Assembly: GCA_002862465.1 (NCBI GenBank)
Contig: PKDD01000121.1
Coordinates: 1-64,000 of the forward strand
Origin: Haliea sp.
GTDB lineage: Bacteria; Pseudomonadota; Gammaproteobacteria; Pseudomonadales; Halieaceae
Direction: 5' to 3'
Length of the DNA stretch: 64,000 nt
Part shown: piece after piece, positions 4,204-10,242 of the stretch
How the letters are laid out: every line of letters begins with the position of its first letter
Position numbering within the stretch: the stretch's first letter is position 1
Program-made: the position numbers and the translations under genes
Notes under the pieces: generated by a model
What the model was told of the DNA's origin: nothing
What the model saw: only the letters and a program-made list of their open reading frames with translations
Databases searched by the model: none

Positions 4204-4677
4204 TTAATCTAAATGAAAGATATGCTGCCAGGAATCATCCGTCAAATGAGTAGATGTTACGGCACCGCTAGCACCCATATATTTTCCTGTTCCTCCAATC
4301 ACTGCCCGCTCCAAAGTGTCCTCACTTTTTAACGTCGATCCAGTAATCGGATACAGGCCAACCCCTTGAAGCTGAATCGTATCTTTGCCTTTATCGTCAA
4401 AAGAAACCACAGACAGTGTTATGCGACTTTCCAACTCCTTCGAGTGGGCAGCGTAGCCGGTAGTGGTCATCAACCAATCCATCATTACGTCTTGATTATC
4501 AGATGACTTTGCACTAAACCTCCAAATCCGCACATCACCCACTGAATCACCCTGCTCCCCCATGTCGATAACCGTGGGCGCTGGAGTTGGCCCATGAGTA
4601 ATACTAAGGGTAGTATCCGCTACCGCTACTCCGCAAAAAAACACCGTGGCAATGGCATATAAAAAAAATCGCTTCAT
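4204..4677 (-). CDS. Secreted allene-oxide-cyclase-barrel / dirigent-like protein
   Basis: A 157-residue exported protein. The N-terminus MKRFFLYAIATVFFCGVAVA is a signal peptide with probable cleavage after ALA-like VAVA. The rest is beta-rich and ends with IGGTGKYMGASGAV, the loop typical of the AOC-barrel/dirigent (calycin-like) fold. Bacterial members of this fold have no agreed function; the plant relatives steer cyclisation or radical coupling. The ATG at 4677 is preceded by GGAGG at good spacing; a TTG 12 bases upstream would put the ribosome site inside the gene. It is divergent from an HPPD-like dioxygenase across about 340 bases. Fold assignment is fairly firm, function is not. Confidence 0.65.
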   Translation of the reverse strand: MKRFFLYAIATVFFCGVAVADTTLSITHGPTPAPTVIDMGEQGDSVGDVRIWRFSAKSSDNQDVMMDWLMTTTGYAAHSKELESRITLSVVSFDDKGKDTIQLQGVGLYPITGSTLKSEDTLERAVIGGTGKYMGASGAVTSTHLTDDSWQHIFHLD

Positions 4678-5021
4678 TACTACCTCCAAAGTATAGCACC
4701 CTGCGCTTCTAGTCGATCCGTGCGTTTAAAGTCCAATCAGACAAAAAAGGTGACCTATCGGCGCGTATAACAGATCAATCTCTTTGATCGTAGCATGCGA
4801 TTAACACAAGTCAACGACTGAACCATCAATAACAGGTCGCTATTTCAGTGTTTTGCTACAATCACAAGCTATCGGCATTTTTGATCTTTTTTCTGGAAGA
4901 TTTCTTGCAAGAGGTTCAAACTTAGGGTGTGTTTCGAAATTCGGGAATAAACATCGATGGTCGGACTACCGACGTCGCACTCTCTATCAAAAATTGACTT
5001 AAAGAACGAAGGACCTACCCT
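4678..5021. promoter_or_regulatory. Divergent intergenic region with small dyads
   Basis: About 340 bases without a gene, between the dirigent-like gene and the HPPD-like gene, so both promoters should lie here. I see a perfect 6-bp dyad GATCAA-TCTCT-TTGATC at 4773-4789, which could be an operator. In the leader of the rightward gene is a short hairpin GTCGG-ACTA-CCGAC at 4960-4973. I could not assign convincing -35/-10 boxes for either gene. Confidence 0.4.
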
Positions 5022-6269
5022 ATGACTCTCGATATTAACAATTATAAGCCTCTGGGTGACAAAAAAAATTCTGAGTATTTTCATGATTATCTTGCGCGCA
5101 TTTATGAGCGACGCCAAAGTAGCGGTCTAGACGAACTGCTTGGAGGCATCTGCGCGTTGGTTGTGCAGGTCGATACAGACGATGCCGTCGCGTACATGAA
5201 AGAGCTTTATCTAATGACGCCCTATCGACTGAGTGACGTCTATCAAAACGCGACGCACAAATTTTACTTTTTGAGTGGACATTCCGGACGGCCGAAATTT
5301 ATCATTCTCGAACCACTGCAAACCTCGTTTGAAGACGACCTCACCCGCTTGAACATGCTCTACCCATTGTCCCGTGAAAAACCTAATGCCCGATATATCG
5401 GTGAAATTTTTTCAACTAAAGACCTAAAGGCAACCCGCGAGATATTAGAATCGCACAGCATTAGGTTTCACTATCCTAAAGAAACAGAAAACGAATTCTT
5501 CTCCAACAAACATTTCAACTTTACCTTCCCCTCCGCCATGACTGGAAACCGCATTGGCTATACACCGCACGATGCCTTTAGCCTAGAGGAACTCGAGCAC
5601 GGCAAACGCATCAAAATTTCTGGCGAAGATCAAGCCGCTCTGGATAAGGCCGCTGAACAAGCTGCGAGTCTTAATATCGCTGAACTCGTATTAGGAGTTG
5701 ATCACATGGCCACGCGGATACTTGCGGGAGAGCGCGAGGATGCCATTCTAGAATTTTTAACAATGAGTAACTACTATTTTTGGGGGGCTTATAACATCAA
5801 AGATCAGAACTCATCTACCAACGTTAACCGAAACCCTTGCGTTGATAATGACAAGCAATCACCCGCGAAAGTTTTTACCGCAAACAATATACCGTCATTC
5901 ATCAATTCTTTTGACAATGCGCCGATGCCGACAGAGGACTTTGTGCGAAATTATGGTCGCAGAATGCACCACATAGCCTATGAAATACAAGATGGCGATC
6001 ATGCGGGCGGCGAAAAAAATATCGATTTTGTTGTCAATGCTCTCAAAAATGAAAATATTGATTTCCTGGCGCAAGTAGTCGGCGAATGCAGCGACACGCC
6101 TAATCTGAAACAGATTTTTTCTAAGCACTCCAAATATTCTCTATTGATCACTGAGTACGTTGAGCGTTGTCATGGTTATGAGGGGTTCTTCACAAAGTCA
6201 AATGTTGCCGCACTGACTCAGGCCGCGGGTCAAGACGAGCGCTACGAGCATGGAAATGTATTCGACTGA
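5022..6269 (+). CDS. HPPD-like VOC-family dioxygenase
   Basis: A 415-residue protein resembling 4-hydroxyphenylpyruvate dioxygenase (two vicinal-oxygen-chelate halves, non-haem Fe(II)). The C-terminal half has LGVDHMATRI (His228), RRMHHIAYEI (His316/317) and LITEYVERCHGYEGFF (Glu378), matching the 2-His-1-Glu iron site and the final GFGKGNF-like loop of HPPD. It is longer than most bacterial HPPDs (about 350-360), carries an N-terminal extension, and the loop is altered to GYEGFFTKSN, so I do not call it hpd. It likely oxidises an alpha-keto or related aromatic acid. A GAAGGA ribosome site precedes the ATG. It is the only rightward gene in its neighbourhood, divergent from the dirigent-like protein. 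Confidence 0.68.
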   Translation: MTLDINNYKPLGDKKNSEYFHDYLARIYERRQSSGLDELLGGICALVVQVDTDDAVAYMKELYLMTPYRLSDVYQNATHKFYFLSGHSGRPKFIILEPLQTSFEDDLTRLNMLYPLSREKPNARYIGEIFSTKDLKATREILESHSIRFHYPKETENEFFSNKHFNFTFPSAMTGNRIGYTPHDAFSLEELEHGKRIKISGEDQAALDKAAEQAASLNIAELVLGVDHMATRILAGEREDAILEFLTMSNYYFWGAYNIKDQNSSTNVNRNPCVDNDKQSPAKVFTANNIPSFINSFDNAPMPTEDFVRNYGRRMHHIAYEIQDGDHAGGEKNIDFVVNALKNENIDFLAQVVGECSDTPNLKQIFSKHSKYSLLITEYVERCHGYEGFFTKSNVAALTQAAGQDERYEHGNVFD

Positions 6270-6341: not shown

Positions 6342-7865
6342 CTAATTCTTAACCTCTAGAATGTAATGCGCGACGGCCAGTCTGGTCTCTTCATCAAGAT
6401 AGTCCTGCGGTGGCATTTCAGGATAGTCGTCTCGCCTCTTAGTTGGGGCGGCAATATAGTCTGCAATACCCTCGGGGTCATCCATGTAGAGCGCCTGAAT
6501 AATCTGCACAGGAGGGCCTATCAGACGCCCGGTGTATGCGTGGCATCCTGCGCAGACACCCAAGTAAGCGATCTTACCTCGATCCTCGCTTTTTATTTCC
6601 CGCGGCGGCACTGGGGGCAGTAAATAATTGCCTATGCTTCGAGTATTTGTGAAATTACATTCAGAAAATCCGTTAATACCTGCGGTGACGTATCGATGGC
6701 GGTTAATGATACAACTGTCTAATGAAGGTCCGATACTTGCGATATCGGGATTGCCAATTTTTAGTTCACTCAACATAAATGCGGTAATCTCGGGAATAGG
6801 ATTGGCTCCATTGTTTATCATGGTGTTATTTAGGATTTTTACGCCGTCTGAATTAGGATCAGACTCTGGATCAACTGTTATATTTGAGGCATTCGCATGA
6901 TCGGTGATTAGGATGCCGATGTTTTTATTATCTCTTATTATATTGCCTTCAATCACTACATCGTCAGCTGCCATTATCAATATCCCAGTCCCGGCTGGCA
7001 CACCCGCCACCGTAGATCCCGGTGCGGCGAAATTAGGGTGGTTATTAGCAATAATGAAATTGTCGCGAATAATCACGTCGTAGGTGGTTTTAATAGGAAG
7101 ACCCGGAGTAATAAAGGCGAGGATACCTCCCGTATTATTATATACGCGGTTTGCTTCAACGATTGCATGACGACTATTTTCGATTTCAATGCCGGCAACG
7201 CTGTCAAATACATCGTTGTGGGCAACATGTATGTTATCACTCATACCAACGTAAATGGCCGCATCTTCTATCCCGGAAACCACGTTATGTTCAACAACAC
7301 CATTTTTACCAAGTTGCGGAAAGATGCCATAGACTCCCGTATCGATAATAATGTTATTGCGGATCTCCCAATTATTACCGGCCTGGCTCATAATACCATT
7401 GCCTTTGTAACGCATAATGGTGAAGTTTTCGACTACAATATTATTTCCGGAATAAAGAATGGCGTCGTTTAGTTTTCCCTCGCCATCCAACACCGCGCGA
7501 TTACTTTCTTTGATAACACCAATCAGCCTAATACCGTCTTTATCTATATAAACTGTTTCTTTATAGGTTCCCGGCATAACCCGGATCGTTGTACCGGGCT
7601 CTGCATTTTGCACAGCTGCTTGAATCGATTCGCCATCATTCACAACCACTACCACATCTGTCATTGGTGGCCCCGCGACAGACTTAGAATAACCACTAAG
7701 CGTGAACGTGCCATCACCAGCATCGAAGCCACCCTCATAGTCCTCACCTGCAATTCTATAGGAAATTACGGGGGCAGCAGCCGAGGTTTTATTTTTTCCA
7801 ACAATCCATCCAACTGCGAAGGCAGACAAAATCAACATCAGACCGAATATTTTTCCTGCCTTCAT
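6342..7865 (-). CDS. Parallel beta-helix protein fused to C-terminal cytochrome c domain
   Basis: A 507-residue exported protein with three parts. First is a signal peptide or membrane anchor (residues 1-23). Residues about 80-370 form a right-handed parallel beta-helix of NosD/pectate-lyase type, with repeated N-x-I/V turns such as NNIVVENFTI, NNWEIRNNII and NIHVAHNDVF. The C-terminal domain of about 90 residues is a monohaem cytochrome c, with CAGCH at 438-442 and probable axial Met484 in PEMPP. Beta-helix proteins of this sort are known to occur paired with uncharacterised cytochrome-containing partners. The start at 7865 follows AGGAG; a longer reading would overlap the upstream peroxidase gene. 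It is the last gene of the c-type cytochrome operon. Binding of a polysaccharide or other long ligand to the helix is inference. Confidence 0.8.
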   Translation of the reverse strand: MKAGKIFGLMLILSAFAVGWIVGKNKTSAAAPVISYRIAGEDYEGGFDAGDGTFTLSGYSKSVAGPPMTDVVVVVNDGESIQAAVQNAEPGTTIRVMPGTYKETVYIDKDGIRLIGVIKESNRAVLDGEGKLNDAILYSGNNIVVENFTIMRYKGNGIMSQAGNNWEIRNNIIIDTGVYGIFPQLGKNGVVEHNVVSGIEDAAIYVGMSDNIHVAHNDVFDSVAGIEIENSRHAIVEANRVYNNTGGILAFITPGLPIKTTYDVIIRDNFIIANNHPNFAAPGSTVAGVPAGTGILIMAADDVVIEGNIIRDNKNIGILITDHANASNITVDPESDPNSDGVKILNNTMINNGANPIPEITAFMLSELKIGNPDIASIGPSLDSCIINRHRYVTAGINGFSECNFTNTRSIGNYLLPPVPPREIKSEDRGKIAYLGVCAGCHAYTGRLIGPPVQIIQALYMDDPEGIADYIAAPTKRRDDYPEMPPQDYLDEETRLAVAHYILEVKN

Positions 7866-7890
7866 AATGACTCTCCTAGTTGAGTAGGTA

Positions 7891-9084
7891 TTACTGCTTT
7901 TCACGCTGCCGGCGTTTGCTCATGTTGTGACTGATCGGTGTCAATCCAGAAGGCAAGTGCGATGGCGTCTGAGGCTTCAGGCTCTCATCAGTCAAGGCTC
8001 CCATAAAATCGACTAATCGGTCCAACTCATAGTCAGTCAAATCAGGCGAGGAAATGTGCCAATGCAACTTCAAGTCAAGACCTTCAGGCACTGCATGACC
8101 TCGGCCTCCATTATAAAAAGTAGCGACTGCATGCAGACTATCAAAGCTCCCAGAGTGCATATAGGGCGCAGTCCTATCTATATTACGCAATGTGGGCACC
8201 TTGAACCCTGCTTTTAGTCGAGGCTCTTCAAAAGTCTCCTGTGCCCCGATATCAATCGTCATTCCCTCTGGCTCTGGGACACCAATCACTGCAATCTGCT
8301 GGTTAGTGAACAGTGGGGGGGTATGGCATTCTGCGCAGCGTGCAACAAATGAACGGAAAATGTTGAGCCCTTCAACCTCATGCTTTGACAAAGCAGCATG
8401 AAATCCGTGTGCATATCGGTCGTAGCGACTGTTCAACGAAATAAGCGAGGCCTGAAAAGCAACAAGCGCGTGATAAATCTCATCGAGTACAATACGCTCG
8501 CCCTTTCGCTCAGGGTATGCTGTTTTGAATAGTGCGCGATACGATGGGATTTCATTGATTGTTGTCAGCAAGCCATCAGGCGTGTTACCCATTTCGTTAG
8601 ACGCATACAACGGACCGAGAATCTGTGCTTCAAGGGTCTCAGCATGCGCATCCCAGAAAAACTTTTTCAGAAATGCCACATTCCATAGAGAGGGTGCAGC
8701 GCGGGCGAGTTGTTCACCCTCGATGCCGATTGAGCGAGGCAGGCCGTCGCTAAAACCTCGGTCGGGATGATGGCAACTTGCGCAAGAAATAGAACCACCT
8801 TTGGAGAGTGCAGGATCGAAAAAGAGATAGCGTCCAAGGTCAATTTGCTGCGGTGTAAAGCCGTCTCGATGCTGCGGCAAAGACGTCTGTGTGCCACCTA
8901 GCCCGGCGCCCTGTACAGATTCATAAAATCCATACACTGTAACTAGGTTACAGGTCCCATCCGACATTTTCTCAAAACTGGGGGGGCAACTCTCTCGCAA
9001 CATGATAGTCGCTGATGGAGAAGCGCTAGCGCTTAAGGTGAAAACCAGCGTAAGCAAGATCAATGCGAGTAAGCGAATAAACAT
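7891..9084 (-). CDS. Dihaem cytochrome c peroxidase / MauG family protein
   Basis: A 397-residue periplasmic dihaem protein with a signal peptide ending near SASA (about residue 21). Haem sites are CASCH at 101-105 and CAECH at 250-254, in the spacing of the bacterial cytochrome c peroxidase/MauG family. Family landmarks such as LGRYLFFDPALS (83-94), RAAPSLWN (128-135), KVPTLRNIDRTAPYMHSG and DYELDRLVDFM are present. It could reduce peroxide or, like MauG, oxidise a partner protein. The tail ends in a basic stretch (KRRQREKQ). It lies 25 bases upstream of the beta-helix/cytochrome gene and 12 bases downstream of the dihaem cytochrome gene, so the three are probably one operon. Confidence 0.88.
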   Translation of the reverse strand: MFIRLLALILLTLVFTLSASASPSATIMLRESCPPSFEKMSDGTCNLVTVYGFYESVQGAGLGGTQTSLPQHRDGFTPQQIDLGRYLFFDPALSKGGSISCASCHHPDRGFSDGLPRSIGIEGEQLARAAPSLWNVAFLKKFFWDAHAETLEAQILGPLYASNEMGNTPDGLLTTINEIPSYRALFKTAYPERKGERIVLDEIYHALVAFQASLISLNSRYDRYAHGFHAALSKHEVEGLNIFRSFVARCAECHTPPLFTNQQIAVIGVPEPEGMTIDIGAQETFEEPRLKAGFKVPTLRNIDRTAPYMHSGSFDSLHAVATFYNGGRGHAVPEGLDLKLHWHISSPDLTDYELDRLVDFMGALTDESLKPQTPSHLPSGLTPISHNMSKRRQREKQ

Positions 9085-9096
9085 TTATACAGAAAT

Positions 9097-9723
9097 CTAT
9101 AACGGCTTTGCCATTGACTGAATATAGGCGATAACATCATCTAGGTCTTTATCCGTCGGTAAACTCGTGGACATCATCTTCATTTGTCGCCCGTATTTAT
9201 CCTGTGGATGCGTGCCCCGCAAACCCCACTGGAAACCCTGAAACTGCTGCTTTAAATAGGTACCATTCAATATCGACAGAGCCGGTGCGTTCAGACTAGG
9301 ATTACCTTGAGCTTGCCCGCCATGGCAGGCCCCGCATTTTGACTGGTAATAATTATTTCCATTTTTCAGGTTTCCCTCTGGCACAATGGCGGGAGCAATG
9401 CGTGGGAGAGCAGACAAATAATTCGCGACGATAGAGATATCCTCGTCTGACAATGTATCAGCTATCGATTGCATTTGTAGGCCTCGGTTATCACGTGGGT
9501 CACTCCCACGAACGCCTGATTTGAAATACTGCAGCTGTCTCTCAAGATAGTGCGCTCCCTGCCCCGCTAATGCCGGTGCACCCAATTCAATATCGCCTTG
9601 CCCGGCCTCACCATGGCAAACGGCACAGGACTGATATGTTACTGCGGCATCCGGGTCAGCTTGCACTATGATGGCAACCCACATGAACCCCGTCAAAACC
9701 ATGATCCTAGCGATTTTTTTCAT
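9097..9723 (-). CDS. Dihaem cytochrome c4-like protein
   Basis: A 208-residue periplasmic cytochrome with signal peptide MKKIARIMVLTGFMWVAIIV and two class I haem domains, CAVCHG at 33-38 and CGACHG at 130-135. Each is followed by a distal Met loop (GLQMQSIADTLSDEDI; GRQMKMMSTSLPTDKD). This is the cytochrome c4 layout, which passes electrons from the bc1 complex or donors to terminal oxidases or peroxidases. As first gene of the set it is the natural electron donor or acceptor for the MauG-type protein. A GTG 12 bases upstream is an alternative start; neither has a strong ribosome site. Confidence 0.85.
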   Translation of the reverse strand: MKKIARIMVLTGFMWVAIIVQADPDAAVTYQSCAVCHGEAGQGDIELGAPALAGQGAHYLERQLQYFKSGVRGSDPRDNRGLQMQSIADTLSDEDISIVANYLSALPRIAPAIVPEGNLKNGNNYYQSKCGACHGGQAQGNPSLNAPALSILNGTYLKQQFQGFQWGLRGTHPQDKYGRQMKMMSTSLPTDKDLDDVIAYIQSMAKPL

Positions 9724-9834
9724 TATCCAGTACACGTTGACAGGAAAACTGTATAGAACGCCGCAAAGATAGGCAAATAGACCATAGAATTATTATTTCT
9801 GCCTATTGTTTCCAAAGGCATGGTTCGCTACTAC

Positions 9835-10242
9835 TCATTCAGAACGATGTCCGCGCGTGCCCCGCAGACTCTTCTCCATATTGCCAGCAATTGTTCTTGC
9901 CACCTGCTTTGCACGCTCAGTCATCTTACCGGCAAAGTGTTCGTCCGCTGTGGTCCCAAAAAAATCCAGCCAACGCTGAAAATCTTCTTCCTGCAGGACC
10001 CGCTTGTCGTTGAGTCGCCTATGGATACTCATGGTATGCCGCTGGTATTTTTTATCCCCGAGTAATAATTTGCGCCAGTAACTCTTAATATGAGGCAGAT
10101 GTACCGCGAGATCGACCTCTGCAACATCGACAAAAATCGGCGACAATCGCTCATCAGCAAGCACACGTTCGTAGAAACAATCTACGAAGAAATCGATACT
10201 TTCCTTGGAGTCCATATCAGGCCTATCATCACCAGCTATCAT
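9835..10242 (-). CDS. Group III truncated haemoglobin
   Basis: A 135-residue 2-on-2 haemoglobin. B10 tyrosine is Tyr24 in FYERVL, a conserved Trp56 lies in HIKSYWRKLL, the proximal histidine is His74 in MSIHRRL, and FQRWLDFF (88-95) closes the family pattern. Group III globins (Campylobacter Ctb type) bind oxygen or NO and are linked to microaerobic or nitrosative conditions. It lies 4 bases downstream of der and upstream of the c-type cytochrome genes on the same strand. An alternative ATG at 10215 would shorten it by 9 residues. No FNR- or NsrR-type operator is obvious. Confidence 0.85.
   Translation of the reverse strand: MIAGDDRPDMDSKESIDFFVDCFYERVLADERLSPIFVDVAEVDLAVHLPHIKSYWRKLLLGDKKYQRHTMSIHRRLNDKRVLQEEDFQRWLDFFGTTADEHFAGKMTERAKQVARTIAGNMEKSLRGTRGHRSE

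Follow-up and report, generated by a model that had tools for sequence, protein, structure and literature searches.

The window analysed here is a 64,000-nucleotide stretch of DNA of Haliea sp. (Gammaproteobacteria; Halieaceae), positions 1 to 64,000 of contig PKDD01000121.1 in assembly GCA_002862465.1. On its minus strand three closely spaced genes, called C4, M and B here and transcribed in that order, encode a periplasmic five-haem protein set, with two CXXCH sites in C4, two in M and one in B.

9097..9723, minus strand: C4, a di-haem c4-type cytochrome of 208 amino acids (aa), N-terminus signal-like by eye
7891..9084, minus strand: M, a MauG/MbnH-type di-haem enzyme of 397 aa, apparently a subfamily of its own
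6342..7865, minus strand: B, a fusion of a right-handed beta-helix and a mono-haem cytochrome c, 507 aa

The intergenic gaps are 12 bases (C4/M) and 25 bases (M/B). The start of C4 was taken as the ATG at 9723, the list of open reading frames (ORFs) giving a GTG at 9735; that of B was taken as the ATG at 7865, which has GGAGAG ahead of it, and a start at the GTG given in the list, 7904, would make B run into M. The first-pass annotation, made from the sequence of this DNA alone, had described three adjacent minus-strand genes with five haem sites and one beta-helix/haem fusion, and this gene set was recovered at the same place. Between 6200 and 10400 there was no excess of promoter-like patterns (9, compared with 7.1 in shuffled sequences) or of terminator-like patterns (4, compared with 4.0).

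The conservation of the three genes was surveyed in an order set of 194 genomes, a phylum set of 398 genomes and a named-genome collection that leans to near relatives, in which the search patterns matched 467 stretches, with 360 of them confirmed and the best 80 used. The nearest relative among these best 80 of 360 was an uncultured Haliea at 88%; the named hosts include Halioglobus, Colwellia, Thalassotalea, Bowmanella, Steroidobacter and Povalibacter. In all 76 named loci with more than 1400 bases upstream (80 examined), M and B share a strand and M directly precedes B; M also lies upstream in 28 of 28 uncut order-level loci, the 29th locus fetched with B being a cut contig. C4 is found upstream in 70 of the 73 named loci with more than 2400 bases upstream and in 22 of 28 order-level loci. 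A fused B of the full type was detected in 30 of the 194 order genomes with an expectation value (E) of 1.4e-120 or better, the next match (E 2.4e-43) being the second beta-helix of the Haliea genome itself. M of the same type was present in 29 of the 194 (E no worse than 3.3e-121, all other matches falling short of 1e-60), and all 29 fall within the 30 fused-B genomes, the exception being G045, whose contig ends inside B. In the phylum set, B and M occur together in the same 7 of 398 genomes, one of which is from another class; in one further genome, G213, no B was matched at E 1e-20, and its M-like protein is a weaker match (E 3.3e-55, 40% identity) that starts at residue 68. B, M and C4 form a conserved module in which the B-M pairing is near-strict and C4 is usual. 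Because of these neighbourhood and co-occurrence counts, a chance cluster is ruled out, and the neighbourhood survey that the first-pass annotation had proposed as a check revealed a conserved neighbourhood.

Residue conservation was read from alignments A1, A2 and A3, comprising 23 of 28, 23 of 26 and 17 of 19 clustered order-level proteins, and from a larger alignment. For the latter, 80 named, 18 of 29 order-level and 3 of 6 phylum-level loci gave 101, of which 2 with short matches were dropped; it has 100 rows, 99 of them distinct, and B pairwise identity ranges from 0.41 to 0.99.

C4 has two Pfam cytochrome c stretches and reaches no NCBIfam cut-off. The best PDB matches of its profile are the cytochromes c4 1etp and 6q2u (E 9e-25 and 1e-24), so that the name cytochrome c4 given in the first-pass annotation stands. 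The two haem motifs were placed by alignment:

9613..9627, minus strand: haem motif 1 of C4, C33-H37
9322..9336, minus strand: haem motif 2 of C4, C130-H134

M matches Pfam CCP_MauG (7.4e-51), and its AlphaFold2 model shows a CcP/MauG-like fold at middling confidence (pLDDT 73). Its scores lie below the curated cut-offs of both the MauG family TIGR03791 (183.7 bits against 443.85) and the MbnH family TIGR04039 (212.9 bits against 362.85); among 274 genomes, 10 members clear the latter with 418-500 bits, and the protein ranked next has 293. In a small midpoint-rooted tree of M, MbnH and background sequences, the 23 M sequences formed one clade (support 0.77), separate from MbnH. Judged from its sequence, M looks like a MauG-type enzyme that belongs to neither of the named families MauG and MbnH. 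The following features were mapped on M:

8950..8988, minus strand: N-terminal extension with the Cys pair C33/C45, 100 of 100 rows
8770..8784, minus strand: haem 1 motif C101-H105, from the alignment
8323..8337, minus strand: haem 2 motif C250-H254, from the alignment
8113..8115, minus strand: Tyr324, aligned with MauG Tyr294, 100 of 100 rows
8056..8064, minus strand: His-Trp-His motif, residues 341-343, 100 of 100 rows

MauG Tyr294 is the ligand of the second haem, and by alignment Tyr324 is predicted to hold the same place in M. Such a Tyr and the protein core are shared with MbnH (solved structure 6e1c), likewise a di-haem enzyme, and the Tyr294 equivalent with MauG (3l4m). The N-terminal extension lies outside the profile match of every solved relative, the earliest match position being 73. 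Both Cys of the C33/C45 pair are present in none of 10 MbnH and none of 5 background sequences (2 of the 10 MbnH have a Cys aligned to C45), and the His-Trp-His motif is likewise absent from all 15; both are features that set M apart from these MbnH and background sequences. The invariant W342 of this motif could be a radical site. W144, Q154, P158 and E164 are invariant in 100 of 100 rows and are presumably the counterparts in spacing of MauG W93, Q103, P107 and E113. Two positions before the first Cys of the second haem, all 100 rows have Ala, and it is on this Ala that the hole-exit residue W199 of MauG would presumably fall, placed by its spacing to the haem Cys. The first-pass label of MauG-type peroxidase therefore holds for the CCP_MauG match and the Tyr at the MauG ligand position, but not for membership of either named family or for the W199 position.

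One reading of these data is peroxide respiration or defence, in which M would be a peroxidase fed by C4 and the B cytochrome, with the beta-helix as a scaffold positioning the electron donor within a complex or at a surface. Periplasmic oxidases and peroxidases can receive their electrons from c4-type cytochromes. The best solved matches of the single M sequence are bacterial cytochrome c peroxidases, as are most of the top fold matches, and the invariant W144, Q154, P158 and E164 are shared by relatives (P158 is Val in 6 of 10 MbnH). However, bacterial cytochrome c peroxidases, which share the fold and core residues of M, have a Met ligand at the second haem where M has Tyr. We consider this reading rather unlikely. 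In a further difference between M and these peroxidases, the His in the SIGH motif of 2c1u is aligned with an Ile of M. A second reading is protein modification: M would oxidize residues of B (e.g. Tyr205, Tyr179 or Met159/208) into a cofactor built from the protein itself, in the way that MauG and MbnH act on their partner proteins. The near-strict M-B pair and the Tyr that M has in common with MauG and MbnH are in its favour, whereas the Ala at the W199 position is not; as a whole it is unlikely, and the residues of B bear on it further.

B scores 185 bits against TIGR03805, above the curated cut-off of 141.5, and matches Beta_helix and NosD in Pfam; its C-terminal match to Cytochrom_C is marginal, at 21.9 bits for a cut-off of 21.3. 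AlphaFold2 gave a confident beta-helix (mean pLDDT 83.9), with lower values for the cytochrome domain and its junction and under 50 for the linker of residues 25-60. The parts of B are as follows:

7794..7865, minus strand: N-terminal hydrophobic helix, residues 2-24 in the model, by eye a signal or membrane anchor
6726..7652, minus strand: beta-helix domain, about residues 72-380, from the model, fold matches and invariant residue row
6342..6590, minus strand: C-terminal cytochrome c domain, from Pfam and profile matches to c551/c552/c555
6540-6554, minus strand: haem motif C438-H442, 100 of 100 rows

Met484 is probably the axial ligand of this haem, and the invariant C385 and C403 may form a disulphide. 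In the first beta-sheet, two rows of residues recur at steps of 22-23 residues in predicted strands, M159-F182-Y205-E227-L249 and Q161-Q184-G207-E229-F251, and every one of these residues is conserved in 100 of 100 rows except L249 and F251 (99 of 100). Given the predicted strand pattern, these rows would face outward and line a binding cleft. R232 and K259 are also invariant, and H233 and H323 are kept in 96 and 88 of 100 rows; no His of the beta-helix is invariant among the 100 rows. Such an invariant row exceeds the needs of a scaffold, which argues against peroxide respiration or defence. The invariant Tyr and Met are consistent with protein modification, but the known modification by MauG and MbnH is the oxidation of Trp, the target Trp of MbnH being carried by its partner MbnP. 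No search match to MbnP (PF20243) was obtained in the Haliea genome, in a search made without a positive control. Because no Trp column exceeds 37 of 100 rows in B or 18 of 89 in C4, neither protein has a conserved Trp, and modification of either at Trp is unlikely. The self-modified beta-helix put forward in the first-pass annotation is thus set back in this sense; B might instead be modified at Tyr or Met.

The best fold matches of B are mannuronan C5-epimerases (Z score 31.5, root-mean-square deviation 2.1, 281 residues aligned), with polygalacturonases, tailspikes and NosD close behind. No solved protein matches the beta-helix part strongly in sequence (27 residues at E 0.0086 being the best), and B differs from NosD and AlgE/AlgG, whose fold it shares (Z 27 to 31.5), by its fused haem domain. 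These matches show the fold and not the function. They raise a third reading, polymer processing, in which B would be an enzyme like a polysaccharide lyase or epimerase and the haems would report on or assist it. The invariant Y205, E227, E229, R232 and K259, together with H233 and H323, would suit such an enzyme; on the other hand, the fold is common to many different enzymes, phage tailspikes and NosD, the beta-helix lacks an invariant His, and no sugar-processing family was seen among those recurrent neighbours that were scanned, which were not all of them. The missing His was dropped as proof against polysaccharide chemistry, given the 96 of 100 rows with H233. Polymer processing by B nevertheless appears improbable.

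TIGR03805, of which B is a divergent member, and TIGR03806, an SO2930-family di-haem cytochrome, presumably form a regular pair, seen here by hidden Markov model in the Haliea genome only: on another contig, C34, an 808-aa ORF (L039:7197-9623) fuses TIGR03805 (370 bits) and TIGR03806 (386 bits). This contig holds the genome's one TIGR03806 match, and none was found among the 10 window proteins scanned. B carries its mono-haem domain in place of TIGR03806 and pairs with M and C4. The fused set has 136 conserved columns, of which canonical TIGR03805 proteins (at least 6 of 7) keep 40, including Y179, Y205, E227 and E229; G207 is also common to both. B differs from them at M159, Q161, F182, Q184, M208 and D210. 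Because Y205, G207, E227 and E229 are shared and M159, Q161, F182, Q184 and M208 are not, the sequences suggest that the two groups have the same type of site but that the ligand has changed. The presence of Y179 and Y205 in at least 6 of 7 canonical proteins, 6 loci of which were tested and gave no M match, is a further point against modification of B by M. The first-pass annotation had allowed that the fused family might prove to have a known function; the NCBIfam name and description of TIGR03805 carry none.

The count of neighbouring genes covered 6.5 kb before B and 4.5 kb behind it, some loci being cut by contig ends, and the family names rest on one or two scanned members per cluster. 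Among the 80 named loci, 48 have a TonB-dependent receptor near B (40 of the 56 whose context is complete). It shares the strand of B in 24 loci where it is upstream and in 11 where it is downstream; in 15 it is upstream on the opposite strand, two loci counting twice. An AraC-type regulator, whose membrane part was read from the sequence by eye, is encoded upstream on the strand of B in 39 of the 80 (32 of the 56). A frequent gene order is receptor, regulator, C4, M, B. Receptor and regulator are common beside the module and not universal. A sensor kinase is found downstream in 11 of 80 loci; an aldehyde dehydrogenase near B occurs in 8 of 80, too few to serve as a clue to an aldehyde product. 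The adjoining receptor and regulator do not fit peroxide respiration or defence well. They point to an imported ligand rather than the surface polymer considered in the first-pass annotation, which is possible given that the best fold matches are alginate epimerases. Large ORFs that look TonB receptor-like by eye also lie near canonical TIGR03805-type genes (L183:4358-6802, minus strand; L182:10361-12886, plus strand), and in L183 a two-haem ORF separates the receptor-like ORF from the beta-helix gene. The receptor link may hold for the wider TIGR03805 family.

On the basis of the B-M pairing and co-occurrence, the recurring TonB receptor and AraC-type regulator, the invariant beta-helix residues and the Tyr of M, we tentatively favour, at somewhat less than an even chance, an inducible periplasmic redox unit that oxidizes a TonB-imported ligand. 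The receptor would bring the ligand into the periplasm, where the invariant beta-helix cleft of B would hold it. H2O2, or O2 plus electrons, would load M to a high-valent state, and the ligand, or the complex of B and ligand, would then give up electrons to M. The fused cytochrome of B and C4 would carry electrons between M and the respiratory chain, and the AraC-type regulator would switch the set on in many hosts. We infer the action of M on a cleft-bound ligand, the direction of electron flow and the service of the receptor to the same ligand. A more specific proposal, which we regard as doubtful, is a new kind of oxidoreductase, in which a MauG-superfamily enzyme would act on a TonB-imported compound rather than a protein residue, with the haem-bearing beta-helix as substrate-holding subunit and His-Trp-His as hole-exit site.

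Several observations weigh against the oxidation of an imported ligand by a three-gene unit. C4 is missing in 6 of 28 order-level loci (L037, L051, L052, L053, L060 and L062) and 3 of 73 named loci (L073, L142 and L143), and tblastn did not find it in L174, the B and M locus of another class. The correlation coefficients of tree distances are only moderate (B/M 0.72, B/C4 0.53, M/C4 0.75, with no control gene), and we did not use them as support. The first 17 kb of the window hold no receptor or regulator of these clusters; the receptor was not found in 32 of 80 loci and the regulator in 41 of 80, contig ends having cut some of these loci. TonB receptors are frequent in bacteria of this kind, and the 48 of 80 stands without a background rate. 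The whole case is built on sequences and predicted structures.

Three other genes near the module were noted. The minus-strand gene at 9835-10242 encodes a truncated-haemoglobin-like protein next to a der/engA-like gene; its best PDB match is a group III truncated haemoglobin (E 3.5e-7), and Pfam gave nothing at 1e-3. Counting the window, 10 of 81 loci contain its cluster. The gene was rejected as a module part, as it stays by der when a receptor gene separates it from C4 (e.g. L069 and L072). At 5022-6269 (plus strand) lies a gene for a 415-aa protein, also a neighbour in L065, for which neither Pfam nor NCBIfam gave a match at 1e-3, nor the PDB at 0.1; it presumably resembles a 4-hydroxyphenylpyruvate dioxygenase-like protein. 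The 161-aa protein encoded at 4204-4689 (minus strand) has an N-terminus that by eye looks like a signal; its dirigent-like match of 22.8 bits is below the cut-off of 29.1.

In the open-licence literature, which mostly excludes subscription journals, nothing was recognized as describing the B-M-C4 set; what is already known is the TIGR03805 family, named for its fold. In published work, SO2931 appears as a cytochrome c lipoprotein named with Fe/Mn oxides (PMC5955497), SO_2930 and SO_2931 are placed at the outer membrane or outside (PMC4837345), and the TIGR03805 label occurs within an exopolysaccharide cluster (PMC3584217).

In summary, one TIGR03805 protein and one MauG-like protein, each of a distinct subfamily, are locked together in a compact gene set of many Gammaproteobacteria, and B and M also occur in one genome of another class. 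No role is known to us for TIGR03805 beta-helix proteins or for most MauG-like enzymes. With cultured hosts, and with a receptor and regulator adjoining in many of them, the ligand can be hunted, and the substrate, if found, would give both families a first function.

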